A stretch of DNA of 48,359 bases from a virus. Of this stretch, positions 16,221 through 41,096 are shown one piece after another. The first letter of the stretch is position 1; the number at the start of each line of letters is the position of its first letter. A model generated the notes under the pieces. That model did not search any database and was not told where the DNA came from. It saw only the letters and a list, made by a program, of their open reading frames with translations. Position numbers and translations under genes: made by a program. Location: the IMG/VR virus record IMGVR_UViG_3300028025_007001, positions 1-48,359 of that record; one strand, written 5' to 3'.

Positions 16221-16279
16221 TTTGTTTATCTATGAAGCTAAAGTACAAAATCCCCTCGTAGGAAAAAAACCTGTCTCTC

Positions 16280-16345
16280 GTACGAGGGGGTGCACATACA
16301 CTATATTACTGAGATAGTGTTTACAGTAAGGGGTTTACTGTAAAC
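16280..16345. repeat. Two hairpins after the 16447 gene
   Basis: ACACTAT-x(n)-ATAGTGT at about 16294-16314 is followed by a perfect 11-bp stem, GTTTACAGTAA with TTACTGTAAAC, ending near 16345. The first hairpin recurs near 25544 and 25738. No clear U tract, so this is not an obvious terminator. Confidence 0.6.
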
Positions 16346-16767
16346 TAAAAATGTGATTCATTTATAACTACAGGGAATCCCTCTCTGCCGGATGCCTTGA
16401 ATAACCATTCTCCCTCCTCAGTGAAAAGATAAGAATATGATTCATTTCAGTTACGAAAAAATTCGCTTACTGAAGTATTGATTTGCTGAGGAATGAAACC
16501 TTCCCCACGATCTCTATGATAAGCAACAGTGACCCCAGGTTGAGGAGAAGCGAACGAATGAGGGCCAGTAGGTATAATCTCTTCCATAAGGAAAGATATA
16601 TCCCCAAGAGAAATTAGGGCTTCTACTTTTTCTCGATCCTGATAATTTTCCATTAGAGTTTTTCCGACTCCAGAAGGGTATCCATCAAAGTGACAGTAAA
16701 TGCTTTTAATTACTTTGTTACCGGAAGCGTTGGTGGTTTCGATTCCAATTCTAGAAGGTGTTGCCAT
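16345..16767 (-). CDS. DGYPxGVG-family phage protein with in-frame TGA
   Basis: The first 106 codons match a phage family I recognise: MATPSRIGIE, then SIYCHFDGYPSGVGKTL, then DREKVEALISLGDISFL and PGVTVAYHRDRGE. The frame meets TGA at 16447-16449, but the same frame stays open for 33 more codons and reads like protein (SYLFTEEGEWLFKASGREG...) before TAG at 16345. Relatives I recall are longer and end with a Tyr/Trp-rich tail, so the tail is probably the original C-terminus. Either the gene is truncated by a nonsense change or TGA is read through. Promoter near 16816. Confidence 0.8.
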
Positions 16768-18629: not shown

Positions 18630-18680
18630 CCTTTAATTTTTGTGGTCCTGCTGATCTAAGGGACCTAATTTTTATTCTTG

Positions 18681-18752
18681 TAGGCTCACCAGGACTCGAA
18701 CCTGGAATAGAAGCTTAGAAGGCTACTGTTATATCCCTTTAACTATGAACCT
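18681..18752 (-). tRNA. tRNA-Arg (anticodon UCU)
   Basis: A 72-base cloverleaf on the minus strand: acceptor AGGTTCA with TGAGCCT (one G-T pair), D stem GTTA/TAAC, anticodon arm with loop CTTCTAA giving anticodon TCT, a four-base variable loop, T arm CCAGG-TTCGAGT-CCTGG, discriminator A. The anticodon stem has one T-T mismatch. No CCA is encoded. It reads AGA, a codon common in the window's genes. A promoter (TATATTAG, box near 18786) sits directly upstream, and the HD and kinase genes follow downstream. Confidence 0.92.
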
Positions 18753-18799: not shown

Positions 18800-19660
18800 T
18801 TATATGAATTTTTTAAGGAATTTTGCTCTCGGACCTCCTCTAAGCTTTCTTAGAGCTGCTTCCCGAATTTGACGAATCCTTTCTTTACCAAGACCTATAG
18901 TCTCGGATATTTCCTCCATTGTCTTTTCTTCTCCTCCTAGTCCAAATGACAATTGAATTATCATCTTCTCACGAGGGTCTAATGTTTCTAAAATGGTGGT
19001 GACCGCGTCCACTTTCTCGTCGGTATTGAAGTCCTTATCTGTTCTGAAAGTCTCGTCTGAAAGGGTATCTCCCAATGTGAAGTCTTCTTCCCCTATAGGC
19101 TCATCTATAGAACTCATAGTGTTTACCGATTTAAGGGATGTCACAACTTTCATTTCGGAAAGTCCGGATTCTTTTACGATCTCCTGGAAAGTGGGATCCC
19201 GGTTTTCCCTTACGTTGAAGTCGCTAATGACTTTTCGTATCTTAGCCATATCTCGGATTCGGCTAAGAGGAAGACGAATGGCTTTACCGTTCATGGTTAT
19301 CGATTCGGCAATGGCTTGTCTAACCCACCAGAGAGCACATGTAATAAATTTGAACCCTCTTTCTCCTTCAAATTTCTGAGCTGCCCGAACGAGACCCAAA
19401 TTGCCTTCGCTTATAAGATCCTCTAGGGGAAGCCCTTGATTCTGGTACTTCTTAGCTACGGATATAACGAATCGAAGGTTTGCACAGACCAATTCATCCA
19501 AAGCTTCCTGTGATCCCTCTTTAATTTTTTCTGAAAGCTCTAATTCTCTTTCTTGGGAAATCATCGGTATAGAAGATACCGCATCTAGATAAGCTTTAAG
19601 GGACTGAGTCTCCTTCAGAGTTATCATCTGTGTGATCGTAAATTTTCTGTTCTGTTTCAT
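18800..19660 (-). CDS. rpoD-like: RpoD-like sigma factor (group 1/2 type)
   Basis: A 286-residue sigma-70 factor of the compact Bacteroidota type, about the length of the host primary sigma factor. Region 1.2 is SLKAYLDAVSSIPMIS; region 2 runs from ANLRFVISVAKKYQNQGLPL through EGNLGLVRAAQKFEGERGFKF to WWVRQAI; region 3 starts RLPLSRIRDMAKI; region 4 contains LDPREKMIIQLSFGLGGEEK and a helix-turn-helix RIRQIREAALRKLR. Region 2.4 and 4.2 differ from host RpoD at several positions, so it may prefer phage promoters. Its own promoter (TAATTTTA, box near 19702) is a diverged copy. A primary-type sigma factor in a phage is unusual; most phages carry smaller or late-specific sigmas. Confidence 0.95.
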   Translation of the reverse strand: MKQNRKFTITQMITLKETQSLKAYLDAVSSIPMISQERELELSEKIKEGSQEALDELVCANLRFVISVAKKYQNQGLPLEDLISEGNLGLVRAAQKFEGERGFKFITCALWWVRQAIAESITMNGKAIRLPLSRIRDMAKIRKVISDFNVRENRDPTFQEIVKESGLSEMKVVTSLKSVNTMSSIDEPIGEEDFTLGDTLSDETFRTDKDFNTDEKVDAVTTILETLDPREKMIIQLSFGLGGEEKTMEEISETIGLGKERIRQIREAALRKLRGGPRAKFLKKFI

Positions 19661-36678: not shown

Positions 36679-37617
36679 ATGAATAAAATAAAAATTGCTT
36701 TTGATCCTAAAACGGGTCTTTACATGGGGAATAACCCGGATCTAAGATCACATTCAACCCGAAAAATTTTGGTTGACGGAGAAGAGATTCAAAATCCATT
36801 TGGAACTTCAACCGTAGTACTTAAAGGAAAACCTAGTAAAATAGAATCTATCACAACAGGAAGAAATTTCATCGGGTGGGAGGATCTGAAAACAGGAACA
36901 AGTATCTCGATAGAAGAATACGATTCTTTAAAAAAAGAGATGACCCAAAACGGGGTACAAGATGAAGATACCTACGAATGGGAATTTGAAGAGATAGAAG
37001 ATCAAGTAAAATTCCTAAGGTTCGATAAGACTTGGACCCGTAAATACACAGAAGAACCGATAGTAGTAGAATTGGAGATAGAAATTATAGAGCATCCAGT
37101 AAGTGAAATCCCAGAAATAATTGGATCTTTTAGTACAGGTGGAAATTCTATATTTGATACTATTTGTGAATATCGTTTAAATTCTGCTCATCTTTTTAGA
37201 AAAAGATGCGAGCACTTTGGGATAGTAAAAGCCAAAACCGAAAATGAAAAAGGAAATGTTTACTGGCTAGAAGATAGGTATAAAGATTTTAGATTTTCTA
37301 AACTAGGGGGAAATTATTGTTCGAGCGACGAATTAAATAGATCTGTTAGAACTACTGCAAGAGGAACATACGAAGAACTAAAAAAACTTCACGAATCTAA
37401 TGTGGAAAAAATAGATAACATCATCAAAGATTGGATTTCTAAACAAGATAAAACAAAAATAGATCCCATAACTTTAGGAAAAGAAATTTCATTTCTGTCC
37501 TCATTGATGGAAAGAGTTAGGAAGATGGAAGTAAAAAAGGTGGATTATCCTTCTCAGAGATCTATAGTGGCTTCTATATCTTCTCGTCTGGAAGATCTTA
37601 AAGGAAGTTTAAATTGA
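36679..37617 (+). CDS. Hypothetical protein
   Basis: A 312-residue protein on the plus strand, divergent from the 36611 gene. N-terminal third is beta-rich (KIAFDPKTGLYMGNNPD, ILVDGEEIQNPF, STVVLKGKPSKIES); then an acidic segment (DEDTYEWEFEEIEDQVKFL); the C-terminal half is helical and basic. It could be a structural or virion component given its neighbours, but nothing proves it. Its last codons contain GTTTAA, the left edge of the cassette array. Confidence 0.8.
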   Translation: MNKIKIAFDPKTGLYMGNNPDLRSHSTRKILVDGEEIQNPFGTSTVVLKGKPSKIESITTGRNFIGWEDLKTGTSISIEEYDSLKKEMTQNGVQDEDTYEWEFEEIEDQVKFLRFDKTWTRKYTEEPIVVELEIEIIEHPVSEIPEIIGSFSTGGNSIFDTICEYRLNSAHLFRKRCEHFGIVKAKTENEKGNVYWLEDRYKDFRFSKLGGNYCSSDELNRSVRTTARGTYEELKKLHESNVEKIDNIIKDWISKQDKTKIDPITLGKEISFLSSLMERVRKMEVKKVDYPSQRSIVASISSRLEDLKGSLN

Positions 37618-37636
37618 AAAACAGAATATAAATATT

Positions 37637-37852
37637 ATGGAAAAACTTATTAAAAAATACGGAAGGCATTTTCTATACACATTGTCAGTTTCCGTTTTTT
37701 TGACTTCTTGTGCAGAAGATAAACACAAGTTAGATGGACAAATAATTAAGGTAAGAGGTGAATATTTTAGGCTAGAAAATAGAATGGGTAATGCATATAT
37801 TCTTGAACCTGTAAAAATTGATAGCACTGCTGTTATTTTAAATGACAACTAA
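37637..37852 (+). CDS. Cassette gene 1: small lipoprotein
   Basis: A 71-residue protein with a lipoprotein signal peptide: basic start (MEKLIKKYGRH), hydrophobic core (FLYTLSVSVF) and lipobox LTSC, so likely anchored to a membrane at Cys26. The mature part has strands (GQIIKVRGEYFRLENRMGN, AYILEPVKIDSTAVIL). The stop codon TAA is part of the attC box ACTAACG, typical of cassette genes. Confidence 0.8.
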   Translation: MEKLIKKYGRHFLYTLSVSVFLTSCAEDKHKLDGQIIKVRGEYFRLENRMGNAYILEPVKIDSTAVILNDN

Positions 37853-37981
37853 CGTTATGCGGTTTTGTCTTGTTGCCAATAAAATAAGACCTAATCTTTA
37901 AATTAAACACTAAAAATGGAAAGAACAAAACAAACTGAAAATTTAACCCAATGTGGCAATAAGTCAAAACCACTGTTAGTG
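37848..37981 (+). repeat. attC site 1 (134 bp, long type)
   Basis: Outer boxes ACTAAC (37848-37853) and GTTAGT (37975-37980) are perfect complements. The inner stem pairs 37861-37878 (GGTTTTGTCTTGTTGCCA) with 37954-37971 (TGGCAATAAGTCAAAACC), 16 of 18 positions. The central part, about 75 bases, is unpaired. The length and mismatched stem are typical of long attC sites. Confidence 0.88.
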
Positions 37982-38131
37982 GCAGTTAAATCTGCTTGTT
38001 ATCAGTATAAAAGTGATTTAAAATATGTAAAAAACGTGTCTAAAATATGGTACGGAAAACCATATAGAGGTTTAATTACTAAAATATCAATAGCGTGGCA
38101 CAATTTCTATTGGCACGTTCTTAAAAGGTAA
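37916..38131 (+). CDS. Reading frame crossing the attC 1 end
   Basis: A 71-codon frame. Its first 20 codons lie inside attC 1 (NLTQCGNKSKPLLV overlaps the right arm), so the start is probably not real. Codons 25-71 (SACYQYKSDLKYVKNVSKIWY...) look coding but have no ATG after the site. It may be a degraded cassette gene. Confidence 0.3.
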   Translation: MERTKQTENLTQCGNKSKPLLVAVKSACYQYKSDLKYVKNVSKIWYGKPYRGLITKISIAWHNFYWHVLKR

Positions 38132-38175
38132 TTACTTTAAAAAACTTTAAAAAATTAAACTTTAAAATATAGTTA

Positions 38176-38538
38176 ATGAAAAAGAATATTATTGTTAAAG
38201 AAATTTCTACTTATATTGAATCAGAGCAAATTGAGATAGTTTATATTACCTTACCCCAAAGAACAGAGATTTCCGCCTCTCTGCGGCATAAAGATATATC
38301 CAAAGCGTTTGTCTTTAATTTTAATAGCAAACTATTAAAATACCACCCACAAGAAACTAAAAAAACAATTCATTTTAATTATGGGGTTGGGATAGCTAAA
38401 ACAGAATGGATGTATACAGACAAAATATCCGGCGTAGAAGATTTTAGTAAAAAAAGAGAGAGGAGTGATATGAAAATTGATATTGCATTTCCAAAAGTAG
38501 TTAAAGATATAAGTATCGAAACATTTAATGATAATTAA
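38176..38538 (+). CDS. Cassette gene 2: hypothetical protein
   Basis: A 120-residue beta-rich protein (IEIVYITLPQRTEISASLRH, AFVFNFNSKLLKYHP, IHFNYGVGIAKTEWMY). It ends ten bases before attC 2. No family recognised. Confidence 0.75.
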   Translation: MKKNIIVKEISTYIESEQIEIVYITLPQRTEISASLRHKDISKAFVFNFNSKLLKYHPQETKKTIHFNYGVGIAKTEWMYTDKISGVEDFSKKRERSDMKIDIAFPKVVKDISIETFNDN

Positions 38539-38542
38539 TTAC

Positions 38543-38596
38543 GCATAACGTCCGACGATAAACAATCTTTTTAATGTTGTTTATCATTTGTTAGGT
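38543..38596 (+). repeat. attC site 2 (54 bp, short type)
   Basis: GCATAACG (38543) to GTTAGGT (38590-38596), inner perfect 9-bp stem GATAAACAA (38557-38565) with TTGTTTATC (38577-38585), loop TCTTTTTAATG. The loop recurs nearly exactly in the 39908 hairpin. Confidence 0.85.
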
Positions 38597-38633
38597 TTAG
38601 TTAAATTATTGTTTTACAATTAAAAATATAAAT

Positions 38634-38831
38634 ATGGACAATATTAAATTAACATCAGTAATTCCACAGGAACAAAACACTATCTTTTTTATGCAAGATA
38701 ATGGCGCAAGAGAAATTCTAAAACTTTGTGAAAACGGAGATATTTTCGTAAAAGGTAAACTTGCAGAAAATGACAAAGAAGTTGTGAATGCTTTAAGAGA
38801 ATTTCTCAAAGGACAGGGTTTCCTAAAATAG
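38634..38831 (+). CDS. Cassette gene 3: small hypothetical protein
   Basis: A 65-residue protein with MDNIKLTSVIPQEQNTIFFM, strand GAREILKLCENGDIFVKG, and helix DKEVVNALREFLKGQGFLK. Small proteins of this type (short strand pair 'ENGDIFVKG' and C-terminal helix) are ones I recall from Bacteroidota genomes and phages. It ends one base before attC 3. Confidence 0.78.
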   Translation: MDNIKLTSVIPQEQNTIFFMQDNGAREILKLCENGDIFVKGKLAENDKEVVNALREFLKGQGFLK

Positions 38832-38930
38832 CCTATAACGTTTTGCAGGTAGGCGATAGTGCCGCTTACCACAAATTTTAAATCGAAGCACTCAGGCTCA
38901 TAGCGGCATTTTGCCTACCTGCTGTTAGGT
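38832..38930 (+). repeat. attC site 3 (99 bp)
   Basis: CCTATAACG to GTTAGGT. Inner perfect 10-bp stem GCAGGTAGGC (38845-38854) with GCCTACCTGC (38913-38922), then a second stem AGTGCCGCT (38858-38866) with AGCGGCATT (38902-38910), one G-T pair, and an unpaired centre. The clearest attC in the array. Confidence 0.92.
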
Positions 38931-38977
38931 GTCTGTAAAAAATAAATTTAGCGCGGGCGAATTAAACAAATTACAAA

Positions 38978-39175
38978 ATGCAAAAAGCTATTAAAGTATT
39001 ACAAGACAAAATCAATGAGTGTGAAAACATGAAAACTTGGTTTGAAACTGAGTTATTAAAACACCAACACGCAACTGCCGACCAAACAGAAGTCCAAAGA
39101 CTTAAAATTGGGCAACAAGAAGCTGTTGATATAAGCAAAGAGTGTTTTGATGCTATTGATATGTTAACCAAGTAG
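38978..39175 (+). CDS. Cassette gene 4: small coiled-coil protein
   Basis: A 65-residue helical protein (MQKAIKVLQDKINECENMKT, then WFETELLKHQHATADQTEVQ, EAVDISKECFDAIDML). A short coiled coil is likely. Followed by a hairpin that resembles an attC end. Confidence 0.75.
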   Translation: MQKAIKVLQDKINECENMKTWFETELLKHQHATADQTEVQRLKIGQQEAVDISKECFDAIDMLTK

Positions 39176-39187
39176 GATGTTGATTGT

Positions 39188-39226
39188 GTTGGGTGCGTGG
39201 GAAATTTATTTTTTATTGCACCTAAC
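39188..39226 (+). repeat. Short attC-like hairpin after gene 4
   Basis: GTTGGGTGC (39188-39196) pairs with GCACCTAAC (39218-39226), one G-T pair. The box order is GTT...AAC, opposite to a standard attC, so this may be two neighbouring site ends after loss of the cassette between them. Confidence 0.5.
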
Positions 39227-39251
39227 GTAAAAATATAAAAACAGTAACGGA

Positions 39252-39554
39252 ATGAAAGAATTAGAGATAAAAATACTTGAAGAAGTAACCAATGGAACAC
39301 TTGACACAAATGACATACTACGTAAGTTATTGTTTTTATATGGTGTTACCGAACGTTATTTTTATCATTACTCATACATTTCACCAAATGGAAATGGTAA
39401 CATAAATACTAATGAGTTGATAGAATGTACCAAAGATTTTTATGATAAAATAAAATCTGATAAAAGAGATACTGACTTACATAAACCAGTAAAATATATG
39501 AGTGATGATATACCAACAGATAAGAAATTACGTAAGATTTTATATGTTCGGTAA
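39252..39554 (+). CDS. Cassette gene 5: hypothetical protein
   Basis: A 100-residue acidic helical protein (MKELEIKILEEVTNGTLDTN, LRKLLFLYGVTERYFYHYSY, IECTKDFYDKIKSDKRDTDL). The same word GTAACGGAA occurs just before (39244) and at its end (39551), and GTTACCGAAC/GTTCGGTAAC form an inverted pair (39345 and 39546). Its flanking sites are degenerate. Confidence 0.72.
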   Translation: MKELEIKILEEVTNGTLDTNDILRKLLFLYGVTERYFYHYSYISPNGNGNINTNELIECTKDFYDKIKSDKRDTDLHKPVKYMSDDIPTDKKLRKILYVR

Positions 39555-39598
39555 CGGAAAATAATAAAAGCAGTGCGAATTTTAAAAATAAATATAAT

Positions 39599-39889
39599 AT
39601 GGAAGAATTAGTAAATTGTCCTCTTTGTGGGAGGGAGGAAGAATACGGACAAATGTACGAATATAGAGGTGCATTAGCTTGTTGTGATTGCATTGAAGAA
39701 GCAAGGGAAAAAAGAGATGCTGAACGTGCTGAAATAATCGAAGAGCAAAAACATAAAATAGACAGATTTAAAGGAATTGATTTAAGTGATAGCACAATTG
39801 GAAAAGCTAACCGCCAAATATTGAAAGCGGATATTGAGGTGGCAAAAAAAGAGGGAAAACGATTGCGTGATTACGAAGATAGGAGCTAA
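39599..39889 (+). CDS. Cassette gene 6: zinc-finger protein
   Basis: A 96-residue protein with CPLC and CCDC knuckles about 21 residues apart (a zinc-ribbon-like N-terminus), then a long charged helix (EEAREKRDAERAEIIEEQKH) and a basic tail. Stop is followed by GCTAA. Confidence 0.78.
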   Translation: MEELVNCPLCGREEEYGQMYEYRGALACCDCIEEAREKRDAERAEIIEEQKHKIDRFKGIDLSDSTIGKANRQILKADIEVAKKEGKRLRDYEDRS

Positions 39890-39907
39890 GCATTGCTTTT
39901 ATACCAT

Positions 39908-39936
39908 GTTAGCAAATCGTTTTAATGTTTGCTAAC
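39908..39936 (+). repeat. Small hairpin before attC 6
   Basis: GTTAGCAAA (39908-39916) pairs perfectly with TTTGCTAAC (39928-39936); the loop TCGTTTTAATG differs by one base from the loop of attC 2. Its right arm is also the left outer box of the next attC. Confidence 0.75.
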
Positions 39937-40024
39937 GGTTTGCGTATATACGAGGTACGCCTTAACGAAATTTCAAATTATAAACAAATGCTTGTAGGTG
40001 TATCTTGTATATACGCTGTTATAA
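39931..40024 (+). repeat. attC site 6 (94 bp)
   Basis: GCTAACG to GTTATAA. Inner perfect 10-bp stem GCGTATATAC (39942-39951) with GTATATACGC (40007-40016), extended by partial pairing of GAGGTACGCCT with AGGTGTATCTT. Unpaired centre about 35 bases. Confidence 0.9.
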
Positions 40025-40043
40025 GCTGTAAAAATTACGGAAT

Positions 40044-40223
40044 ATGAACAAAGAACTTTTAAAATCAATATGGACGTTAATTGGAATAGTGATATGGCTA
40101 TTACTATTTACAAAAACATTTTATGAATGGACACAAGGTAAGCAACCAGATAACTTTACTATAATGGTGATATTGTTAATAGCCATATCGCTTGAAAGTA
40201 AATTTAATAGCAGAAAGCAGTAA
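40044..40223 (+). CDS. Cassette gene 7: two-helix membrane peptide
   Basis: A 59-residue protein: MNKELLKSIWTLIGIVIWLL and LFTKTFYEW (helix 1), a polar loop (TQGKQPDNF), then TIMVILLIAISLE (helix 2) and a basic end. It starts about 20 bases after attC 6, typical for a cassette gene. Confidence 0.78.
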   Translation: MNKELLKSIWTLIGIVIWLLLFTKTFYEWTQGKQPDNFTIMVILLIAISLESKFNSRKQ

Positions 40224-40232
40224 TTTTTATTG

Positions 40233-40275
40233 CTTATAACTATATTATATAATAACCTTTTTATAGGTGTTTAAT
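40233..40275 (+). repeat. Degenerate site at the right end of the array
   Basis: Begins CTTATAAC and ends GTTTAAT, with AACCT/AGGT as a partial inner pairing. This is the last boundary before the recombinase and could be a decayed attC or the site used for insertion. Confidence 0.4.
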
Positions 40276-40289
40276 CGCCAATACTTTAA

Positions 40290-41096
40290 TTGATGAAAAA
40301 TCAAAAAATTATAAAGATTTGTGAAGAAAAGTTTATATATTTAAATTATTCCCCGAGAACTAGAGATAATTATATGTCTCATATTAAATCCTTTTTGGAA
40401 AGTTTAGGAGACAAACAAATCATCCATTGTAATTCAAATGATTTTCAATCGTATTTAGATAGTTATAAGTTTACATCAGTCTCTCAACAAAATCAAATTA
40501 TTAATTCTATTAGATTTCTTTATAAAGAAGTTTTAGGTAAAAAATACGATAAAGTAAGTTTTAAAAGACCTAGAAAAGAAAAGAAACTACCAAAAGTGAT
40601 AGATGGAGAGTTTATAAAATCTAAATTGTCTAAAATCGAGAACTTAAAGCACAGAGCAATTTTAACATTAACTTACTCGATAGGATTAAGGGTTTCTGAA
40701 ATAGTTAATCTTAAAATTGAAGATATTGATTCTAAGAGAATGCTGATCCATATCAAGAATGCTAAAGGTAAGAAAGATAGGATATTGCCTCTTTCTCAAA
40801 CAGTTTTAGAATTACTACGAGAGTATTTTAAAGAATATAGACCAAAGGAATACCTTTTTAATGGGCAAAACTCTTTAAAATATTCAATAGGGAGTTGTCA
40901 AAAAATATACAAACGTTATATAGATTCGACATCATCGATCCACACACTCAGACACTCGTCATTTACTAATCTTCTTGAATCCGGAACTGATCTTAGAATC
41001 ATTCAAAAAATTGCAGGACATTCTTCTTCTAAAACTACTGAGATCTATACACACGTTTCAAATCAATTACTAAATAAAGTAAATCTTCCAATTTAG
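40290..41096 (+). CDS. xer-like: Xer-like tyrosine recombinase
   Basis: A 268-residue site-specific recombinase. Catalytic residues visible: Arg134 in SIGLRVSEI, Lys about 159-162 in KNAKGKKDR, His218 and Arg221 in HTLRHSSF, His244 in GHSSSKTT and Tyr253 in EIYTHVS. The N-terminal core-binding domain (YSPRTRDNYMSHIKSFLESL) is present. The region between the Lys strand and the HxxR box has no IntI-specific insertion, so it is XerC/D-like rather than an integron integrase. Length is close to XerD. It could act on the adjacent attC-type sites, on phage integration, or on phage genome dimers. Confidence 0.93.
   Translation: MMKNQKIIKICEEKFIYLNYSPRTRDNYMSHIKSFLESLGDKQIIHCNSNDFQSYLDSYKFTSVSQQNQIINSIRFLYKEVLGKKYDKVSFKRPRKEKKLPKVIDGEFIKSKLSKIENLKHRAILTLTYSIGLRVSEIVNLKIEDIDSKRMLIHIKNAKGKKDRILPLSQTVLELLREYFKEYRPKEYLFNGQNSLKYSIGSCQKIYKRYIDSTSSIHTLRHSSFTNLLESGTDLRIIQKIAGHSSSKTTEIYTHVSNQLLNKVNLPI

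Follow-up and report, generated by a model that had tools for sequence, protein, structure and literature searches.

Qi et al. (2023, PMC9892861) described clusters of attC recombination sites in virulent phages, one of them a Polaribacter phage, and found temperate phages that carry complete integrons. In the accessible parts of that paper, the complete integrons had an integron integrase (IntI), which was host-derived in the Vibrio cases, whereas the virulent phages carried clusters of attC sites lacking integrases (CALINs); no dedicated phage recombinase, phage attI site or reversed cassettes are described there. A cassette array in a phage is thus not new in itself; the preliminary description of the DNA studied here had considered an array inside a phage genome next to its own recombinase to be new. 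An atypical layout, with recombinase and cassette genes running in one direction, has been reported for Treponema integrons (PMC3607928). Here we describe a locus on a linear viral fragment of 48,359 bases (IMG/VR record IMGVR_UViG_3300028025_007001; hereafter the window). It lies between a phage gene and a gene for a XerA-like tyrosine recombinase (Table 1) and consists of six recognisable cassettes A–F (37853–40239), a remnant, an attI-like site at 40237 and the recombinase, which very probably form an integron owned by the phage and served by this dedicated enzyme.

attC sites, cassette boundaries and the attI-like site

Eight small + strand open reading frames (ORFs) lie in the array, broken up by palindromes that open with TAACG and close with TGTTA. 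Small one-direction ORFs and attC-like palindromes had been proposed for this region, and the ORF list, a structural scan and two covariance models bear this out. The number of genes given then, seven, has to be raised to eight. The ORF at 37916–38131 starts inside attC1 and reads through it. Model R1 was derived from 43 attC sites found in other phages, with the window excluded. Model R2 was built from attCs of bacterial chromosomes and contains no phage sequence; its sites were picked with R1, so that their choice is not fully independent. Five array sites were matched by R1 (E 6.6e-16 to 0.009), which gave no other window match at E ≤ 5. R2 matched four (E 5.7e-10 to 1.2e-4), the next match in the window having an E of 2. 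Since R2 holds no phage sequence, bacterial sites by themselves support the identification of these palindromes as attCs. In the structural scan the two best window sites scored 14.7, compared with a best score of 10.7 in 20 Markov-simulated windows.

Four sites had been called convincing beforehand. Those at 37848, 38832 and 39931 proved strong, while the one at 38543 is weak, so with models built here rather than those of IntegronFinder the four did not all fall below threshold. The degenerate site at 39218–39353 and the gene-in-loop site at 39552–39911 had been overlooked. The latter, attC5, was identified by comparison with the viral contigs L240 and L241, in which the same cassette is 97.6% identical and keeps intact arms (GGTATAAAAGCAGTGC and GCATTGCTTTTATACC). 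A whole ORF of 96 amino acids (aa) lies inside this attC loop, with a damaged left arm in the window and an intact left arm in L240 (1465–1835). attC3 has a near-identical twin in another phage (L035, 1268–1369).

Table 1. Features of the array and its flanks in the window.
Feature	Position	Strand	Evidence or remark
Phage gene left of the array, 312 aa, no family	36679–37617	+	ORF
Lipoprotein-like ORF, lipobox LTSC	37637–37852	+	sequence; no family match
attC1, long type, R boxes TAAC 37850 and GTTA 37975	37845–37983	+	R1 41.8 bits, E=9.3e-7; R2 50.1 bits, E=5.7e-10
ORF opening inside attC1 and running through its right arm, leader MERTKQTENLTQCGNKSKPLL followed by VAVK..	37916–38131	+	sequence
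Cassette A, second ORF, 120 aa, no family match	38176–38538	+	ORF
attC2, short, weak, correctly placed	38541–38598	+	R1 23.9 bits, E=0.0094; no R2 match
Cassette B cargo ORF, 65 aa, no family match	38634–38831	+	ORF
attC3	38831–38932	+	R1 69.8 bits, E=5.2e-13; R2 38.2 bits, E=3.1e-7
Cassette C cargo ORF, 65 aa, no family match	38978–39175	+	ends GTTAGGTG / CACCTAAC
attC4, degenerate	39218–39353	+	R1 E=0.0048; R2 E=1.2e-4
Cassette D cargo ORF, begins inside attC4 and reads through	39252–39554	+	ends GTTACCGAAC / GTTCGGTAAC
attC5, gene-in-loop, R boxes TAAC 39552 and GTTA 39908, left arm damaged	39552–39911	+	same cassette in L240/L241
Cassette E cargo ORF, small zinc-ribbon protein, weakly similar to restriction-alleviation protein Lar	39599–39889	+	PF14354 E=1e-4, under gathering cut-off
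attC6	39928–40026	+	R1 82.7 bits, E=6.6e-16; R2 36.1 bits, E=9.2e-7
Cassette F cargo ORF, membrane peptide	40044–40223	+	ends GTTATAAGC / GCTTATAAC
attI-like site, GCTTATAAC then TATATTATATAATAACC	40232–40258	+	right of TAAC conserved in relatives, left not
Tyrosine recombinase, 267 aa, XerA-like, without IntI patch	40293–41096	+	PF00589 E=4.7e-33

Outside the window, R2 located 85 sites across 11 phage loci; every one is on the + strand, and 84 lie upstream of the recombinase. The structural scan gave 311 + strand and 23 − strand sites upstream of recombinases (396 kb), compared with 16 and 8 downstream (565 kb). The bacterial loci meant as negative controls for the attC models themselves hold arrays, and the informative controls are the rest of the window and the downstream regions. 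The hairpin of the + strand, the strand expected to fold, is the more stable one at 178 of 181 phage sites, which is consistent with recombination of a folded, single-stranded attC; in the bacterial array L204 the strand expected to fold is the more stable one at 8 of 10 sites. A second small attC-like group was seen in L024 (about 16245–16600), downstream of the recombinase and outside the main array. A short recurrent cargo, GTTAxxxxx-TCGTTTTAATG-xxxxxTAAC, lies between two R boxes in the window (39908–39936) and in L005, L006, L022 and L044; it is a remainder without an ORF and with a constant centre.

An integron cassette begins with bases that are reverse-complementary to those at its own end, since the two stretches pair at the foot of the hairpin once the cassette is circular. 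Such matching was found over 8, 10, 9 and 9 bases at the ends of cassettes C, D, E and F, respectively. For 170 units of related phages, the two ends of the same cassette matched at a mean of 5.7 of 8 outer positions, compared with 3.4 of 8 between the halves of one in-array site and 3.2 of 8 for random pairs. Cassette E also shows its boundary by comparison: the identity to L240 and L241 stops at the right-hand TAAC (window 39937), and the flanks are unrelated.

Relatives of the recombinase were found on 177 viral stretches, of which the best 80 were fetched (54–92% identity, contigs of 5–362 kb). Nearly every one of these carries a site upstream of the gene, usually 45–95 bp before the start codon, in which a variable part is followed by YTAACTATTATATATA; the window has TAACTATTATATATA 55 bp before its recombinase gene. 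The core TAACTATNATATATA is conserved in about 70 of the related phage contigs and the cassette side is variable. Where recombinases are identical or nearly so (L038/L039/L041, L042/L044, L059/L060 and L081/L082), the contigs are similar to the right of the attI-like site and unrelated to the left, the split lying at TAAC. Of the features that define an integron functionally, the locus has an adjacent site-specific tyrosine recombinase gene, attCs between the cassette genes and an attI with a conserved core at the recombinase end.

The array in the window might be a formerly mobile one that has decayed, with activity persisting in relatives only. Of its sites, attC2 is weak and both attC4 and attC5 are degenerate; the leftmost unit, whose cargo is the lipoprotein-like ORF, has no clear attC, its own site having decayed. 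However, attC6, next to attI, is nearly perfect and the ends of the adjoining cassette F match, as would be expected if the newest units adjoin attI, and the reading frame of the recombinase is intact. We therefore regard decay as unlikely.

Cassette turnover in cultured relatives

Judged by the recombinase, the nearest cultured relatives are Cellulophaga phage Ingeline (39% identity) and Polaribacter phage Freya (37%), whose enzymes branch with the phage clade (support 94/89). Freya and another cultured relative, Danklef, infect Polaribacter. In Freya_1 the core TTTACAAC/ACCCCTATAACAACAATAAG before the integrase gene is empty. At this core Freya_2 carries 842 bp, Freya_5 a further 902 bp and Freya_6 a further 472 bp; Freya_8 has 3198 bp beyond Freya_2, and Freya_10 is like Freya_8 except that it also holds the 902-bp unit, placed at an internal site. 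Every junction of the inserts is at YAAC, either before the integrase or between units, and the rest of the region is nearly identical in these six isolates. Danklef_1 and Danklef_2 likewise split at TAAC. The integrase of Danklef_1, _2 and _5 (L237–L239) is truncated to an annotated coding sequence of 132 bp, and yet a cassette-like unit distinguishes isolates; Danklef_1 has a DNA methylase gene that is absent in Danklef_2.

As a comparison of GenBank records rather than of reads, the Freya series is the strongest evidence that units may move. Together with the occurrence of cassette E in an unrelated context and the matching ends, the differences among Freya and Danklef isolates suggest, by comparison, that cassettes are mobile as units. 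Cassette content is almost never common to relatives, as the 236 cassette ORFs of the relatives fall into 224 clusters. Near-identical cassettes fixed in all relatives, which would have spoken against the preliminary description, are therefore not what the clusters and the Freya series show. Its proposal of an integron-like array beside the phage's own recombinase holds: attC models match, cassettes are individually bounded, cargo differs between relatives and isolates differ by units. Arrays with their own recombinase and isolates that differ by whole units indicate that these phages appear to own an integron-like gene-collecting machine.

In the paper describing Freya and Danklef, the integrases were read as signs of a temperate life style, and integrons or cassettes are not mentioned (Bartlau et al., 2021, PMC8776804). 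Accordingly, the enzyme could be an ordinary lysogeny integrase, the conserved site its attP, the small genes ordinary early genes such as stand beside the integrase in many phages, and the palindromes unrelated. This would leave unexplained that matches to the attC models are confined to the array, that cassette ends match, that near-identical relatives diverge at TAAC and that the Freya insertions are stepwise. It is already contradicted by these data and we consider it highly improbable.

A patchless recombinase and reversed cassette genes

The recombinase was not filed as an IntI because the IntI patch is missing and score, spacing and tree speak against it. It reaches 155.5 bits with the IntI model TIGR02249 (cut-off 265) and aligns to positions 3–180 and 254–313 only, positions 181–253 of the model being absent. 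The KDR and HxLRH motifs are 53 residues apart, compared with 100 in IntI and 58–62 in most patchless bacterial relatives. The IntI sequences form a clade with 100/100 support and the window recombinase falls outside it. Its predicted fold (mean predicted local distance difference test, pLDDT, 80; predicted template modelling score, pTM, 0.64) is nearest to an archaeal Xer (4a8e) and an integron integrase (2a3v). With XerA/XerC/XerD it shares the catalytic core. Unlike these, it is tied to multi-cassette arrays, whereas Xer acts at one dif site. The integron-like function of the locus hence rests on array, attI and turnover, and not on the enzyme family.

Like IntI integrons, both sedentary chromosomal and mobile ones, the locus has an attI by the recombinase and attC hairpins with TAAC/GTTA boxes; each cassette is one unit with matching ends, the predicted crossover is at G^TT, and attC has the same polarity toward attI. 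The genes, in contrast, are inverted. In related phages 161 cassette genes lie on the recombinase strand, reversed relative to attC and attI, and one does not. Beside true IntI of Bacteroidota (L200, L204, L216, L222) the corresponding ratio is 0:11, with the genes on the opposite strand, and beside patchless bacterial relatives it is 0:31, i.e. the canonical gene-then-attC order throughout (31:0), which gives 0:42 for the bacterial arrays. attC polarity toward attI is the same in the phages and in the four IntI arrays. Recombination polarity is thus conventional and the cargo is flipped, and therefore each attC lies 5′ of its gene. Insertion of the array at R″, as a symmetric scanner of attC polarity had suggested, was rejected, as the canonical IntI arrays L200, L204 and L222 have the same polarity with genes on opposite strands. 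In summary, the region appears to work like an integron, yet two usual features, the IntI patch and the gene-then-attC order, are absent.

The closest bacterial recombinases (43–50% identity) are XerA-like enzymes without patch in Bacteroidota (L089, L107, L124, L138–L140, L146). Their loci share the attC architecture and the models cross-match; unlike in the phages, the array lies 3′ of the recombinase. Such arrays in canonical order were seen at these loci and at L158, on chromosomes of Bacteroidota and Ignavibacteria, and searches that require the patch would call them CALINs or overlook them. The Treponema layout differs as well: there intI is transcribed toward attI, whereas the phage recombinase points away from attI and has the array 5′ of it.

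Long attCs frequently contribute coding sequence. Among 135 attCs of at least 105 nucleotides, 88 hold an ATG in frame through the right arm and the R box into the cassette gene, whereas the figure was 15 of 135 for a Markov control and 12 of 129 for short sites. Leaders that recur include MKDLKHIKRFNESEENLNISDV, MEHENLNNQESTQLGIGAV and MNKDNKNTELDNTDKKLHISDV as well as lipoprotein signals, for example MKTKTSIYHHTFAFAYVLL running on into VAVIFFGC, and behind them the cargo sequences diverge directly after the R box. In the window, the ORFs 37916–38131 and 39252–39554 are of this type. The stop codon TAA of the lipoprotein-like ORF is part of the attC1 R box; that of the cassette D ORF is the attC5 R box, which is in frame. 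A promoter within attC was rejected, as the Bacteroidota promoter motif TAnnTTTG is not enriched in arrays (136 and 129 on the + and − strands). Read-through transcription from upstream is hence the simplest guess.

Cassettes might instead have been inserted by an integron integrase of the host, the array being a passive CALIN and its neighbour an ordinary phage integrase. Of 396 Bacteroidota genomes sampled, 105 have a canonical IntI, and the Danklef array is present despite a truncated integrase. The scanner found no array at most of the Bacteroidota IntI genes fetched. According to Qi et al. (2023, PMC9892861), the attCs of virulent phages, with their integrase-less CALINs, can be recombined by IntI1. 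On the other hand, a conserved attI-like site accompanies the recombinase gene in about 70 phage contigs and was found beside only one bacterial relative, L083, which itself falls inside the phage clade; gene orientation is opposite to that of every bacterial array tested; and arrays occur upstream of the recombinase and hardly anywhere else. This explanation is therefore improbable. L083 (Methylophaga, contig PAJP01000008.1) and L084 (Flavobacterium), both metagenome-assembled genomes, carry phage-clade recombinases on contigs binned as bacteria; they are probably misbinned phage contigs, or prophages.

Several points weigh against a phage-owned integron nevertheless. The enzyme lacks the patch by which known IntI binds folded attC, and its action on these sites is deduced from sequence. 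Host IntI may recombine the sites, as IntI1 can in other phages. The turnover series comes from Freya, whose integrase is only 37% identical to that of the window and whose attCs score weakly with R1, and it was taken from GenBank records. Finally, cassettes A and B match only in the 4-base core at their ends.

Proposed mechanism, cargo and implications

For the phage-owned integron we propose that the recombinase would fold the attC + strand, which corresponds to the bottom strand of known attCs, into a hairpin. The left R box would be the place of exchange, between TAA and C (on the other strand, G^TT), and the partner would be either another attC or the attI-like site next to the recombinase gene. 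Circular cassettes, each an attC followed by a gene, would be gained beside the recombinase and could be lost from any position in the array. With the genes pointing toward the recombinase, read-through from an upstream phage operon might transcribe them; the 312-aa gene is on the strand of the array and such read-through is possible from there. In long attCs the hairpin would provide the start codon and an N-terminal leader. The locus may well represent a separate, phage-specific class of integrons, a view we favour with some reserve, marked by its own lineage of patchless recombinases, a hairpin ahead of the gene that doubles as start codon and leader, so that capture sets the start of the cargo protein, and some genes wholly inside the hairpin loop. 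The literature searched contained no description of a lineage of phage recombinases that has an attI of its own and cassettes in reverse, with leaders encoded by attC; as the search did not extend to preprints and the majority of subscription journals, this is weak evidence.

The cassettes of the relatives encode mostly small proteins. Among 150 representatives there were few family matches: three DNA methyltransferase Pfam families, Lar, YopX, RNA ligase and a few others, with one member each. A theme of counter-restriction is plausible, though support for it is thin. The cargo is best read as a changing set of proteins that would serve host interaction or counter-defence, mostly small unknown proteins with some DNA methyltransferases and Lar-like proteins. 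The cassette E protein has 97% identical copies in L240/L241; no relatives of cassettes A, C and D were found in the viral contigs searched.

Elsewhere in the window, PHROG matches include a phage-type ligase, a sigma factor and a metallophosphoesterase. The 312-aa gene has no NCBIfam or PHROG match and a sub-threshold Pfam match only. An Rfam scan of the window gave only a tRNA; a phage tRNA-Arg (tct) at 18680–18752 adjoins an RpoD-like sigma factor gene (18800–19660). TerL (phrog_2) was present on 15 of 31 carrier records searched and absent from the window fragment.

If this reading is correct, phages, and not bacteria alone, run dedicated gene-capture platforms, here on phage contigs of up to 362 kb, which would offer small genes, including anti-restriction genes, a direct route between phages. 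It would challenge the rule that recombination of folded attCs needs the IntI patch, on which integron detection software relies. As attC and gene share a reading frame, the long-standing question of how a gene joins its attC would become testable. With ten sequenced cultured isolates of Freya, gain and loss of cassettes could be watched in an ordinary plaque experiment.

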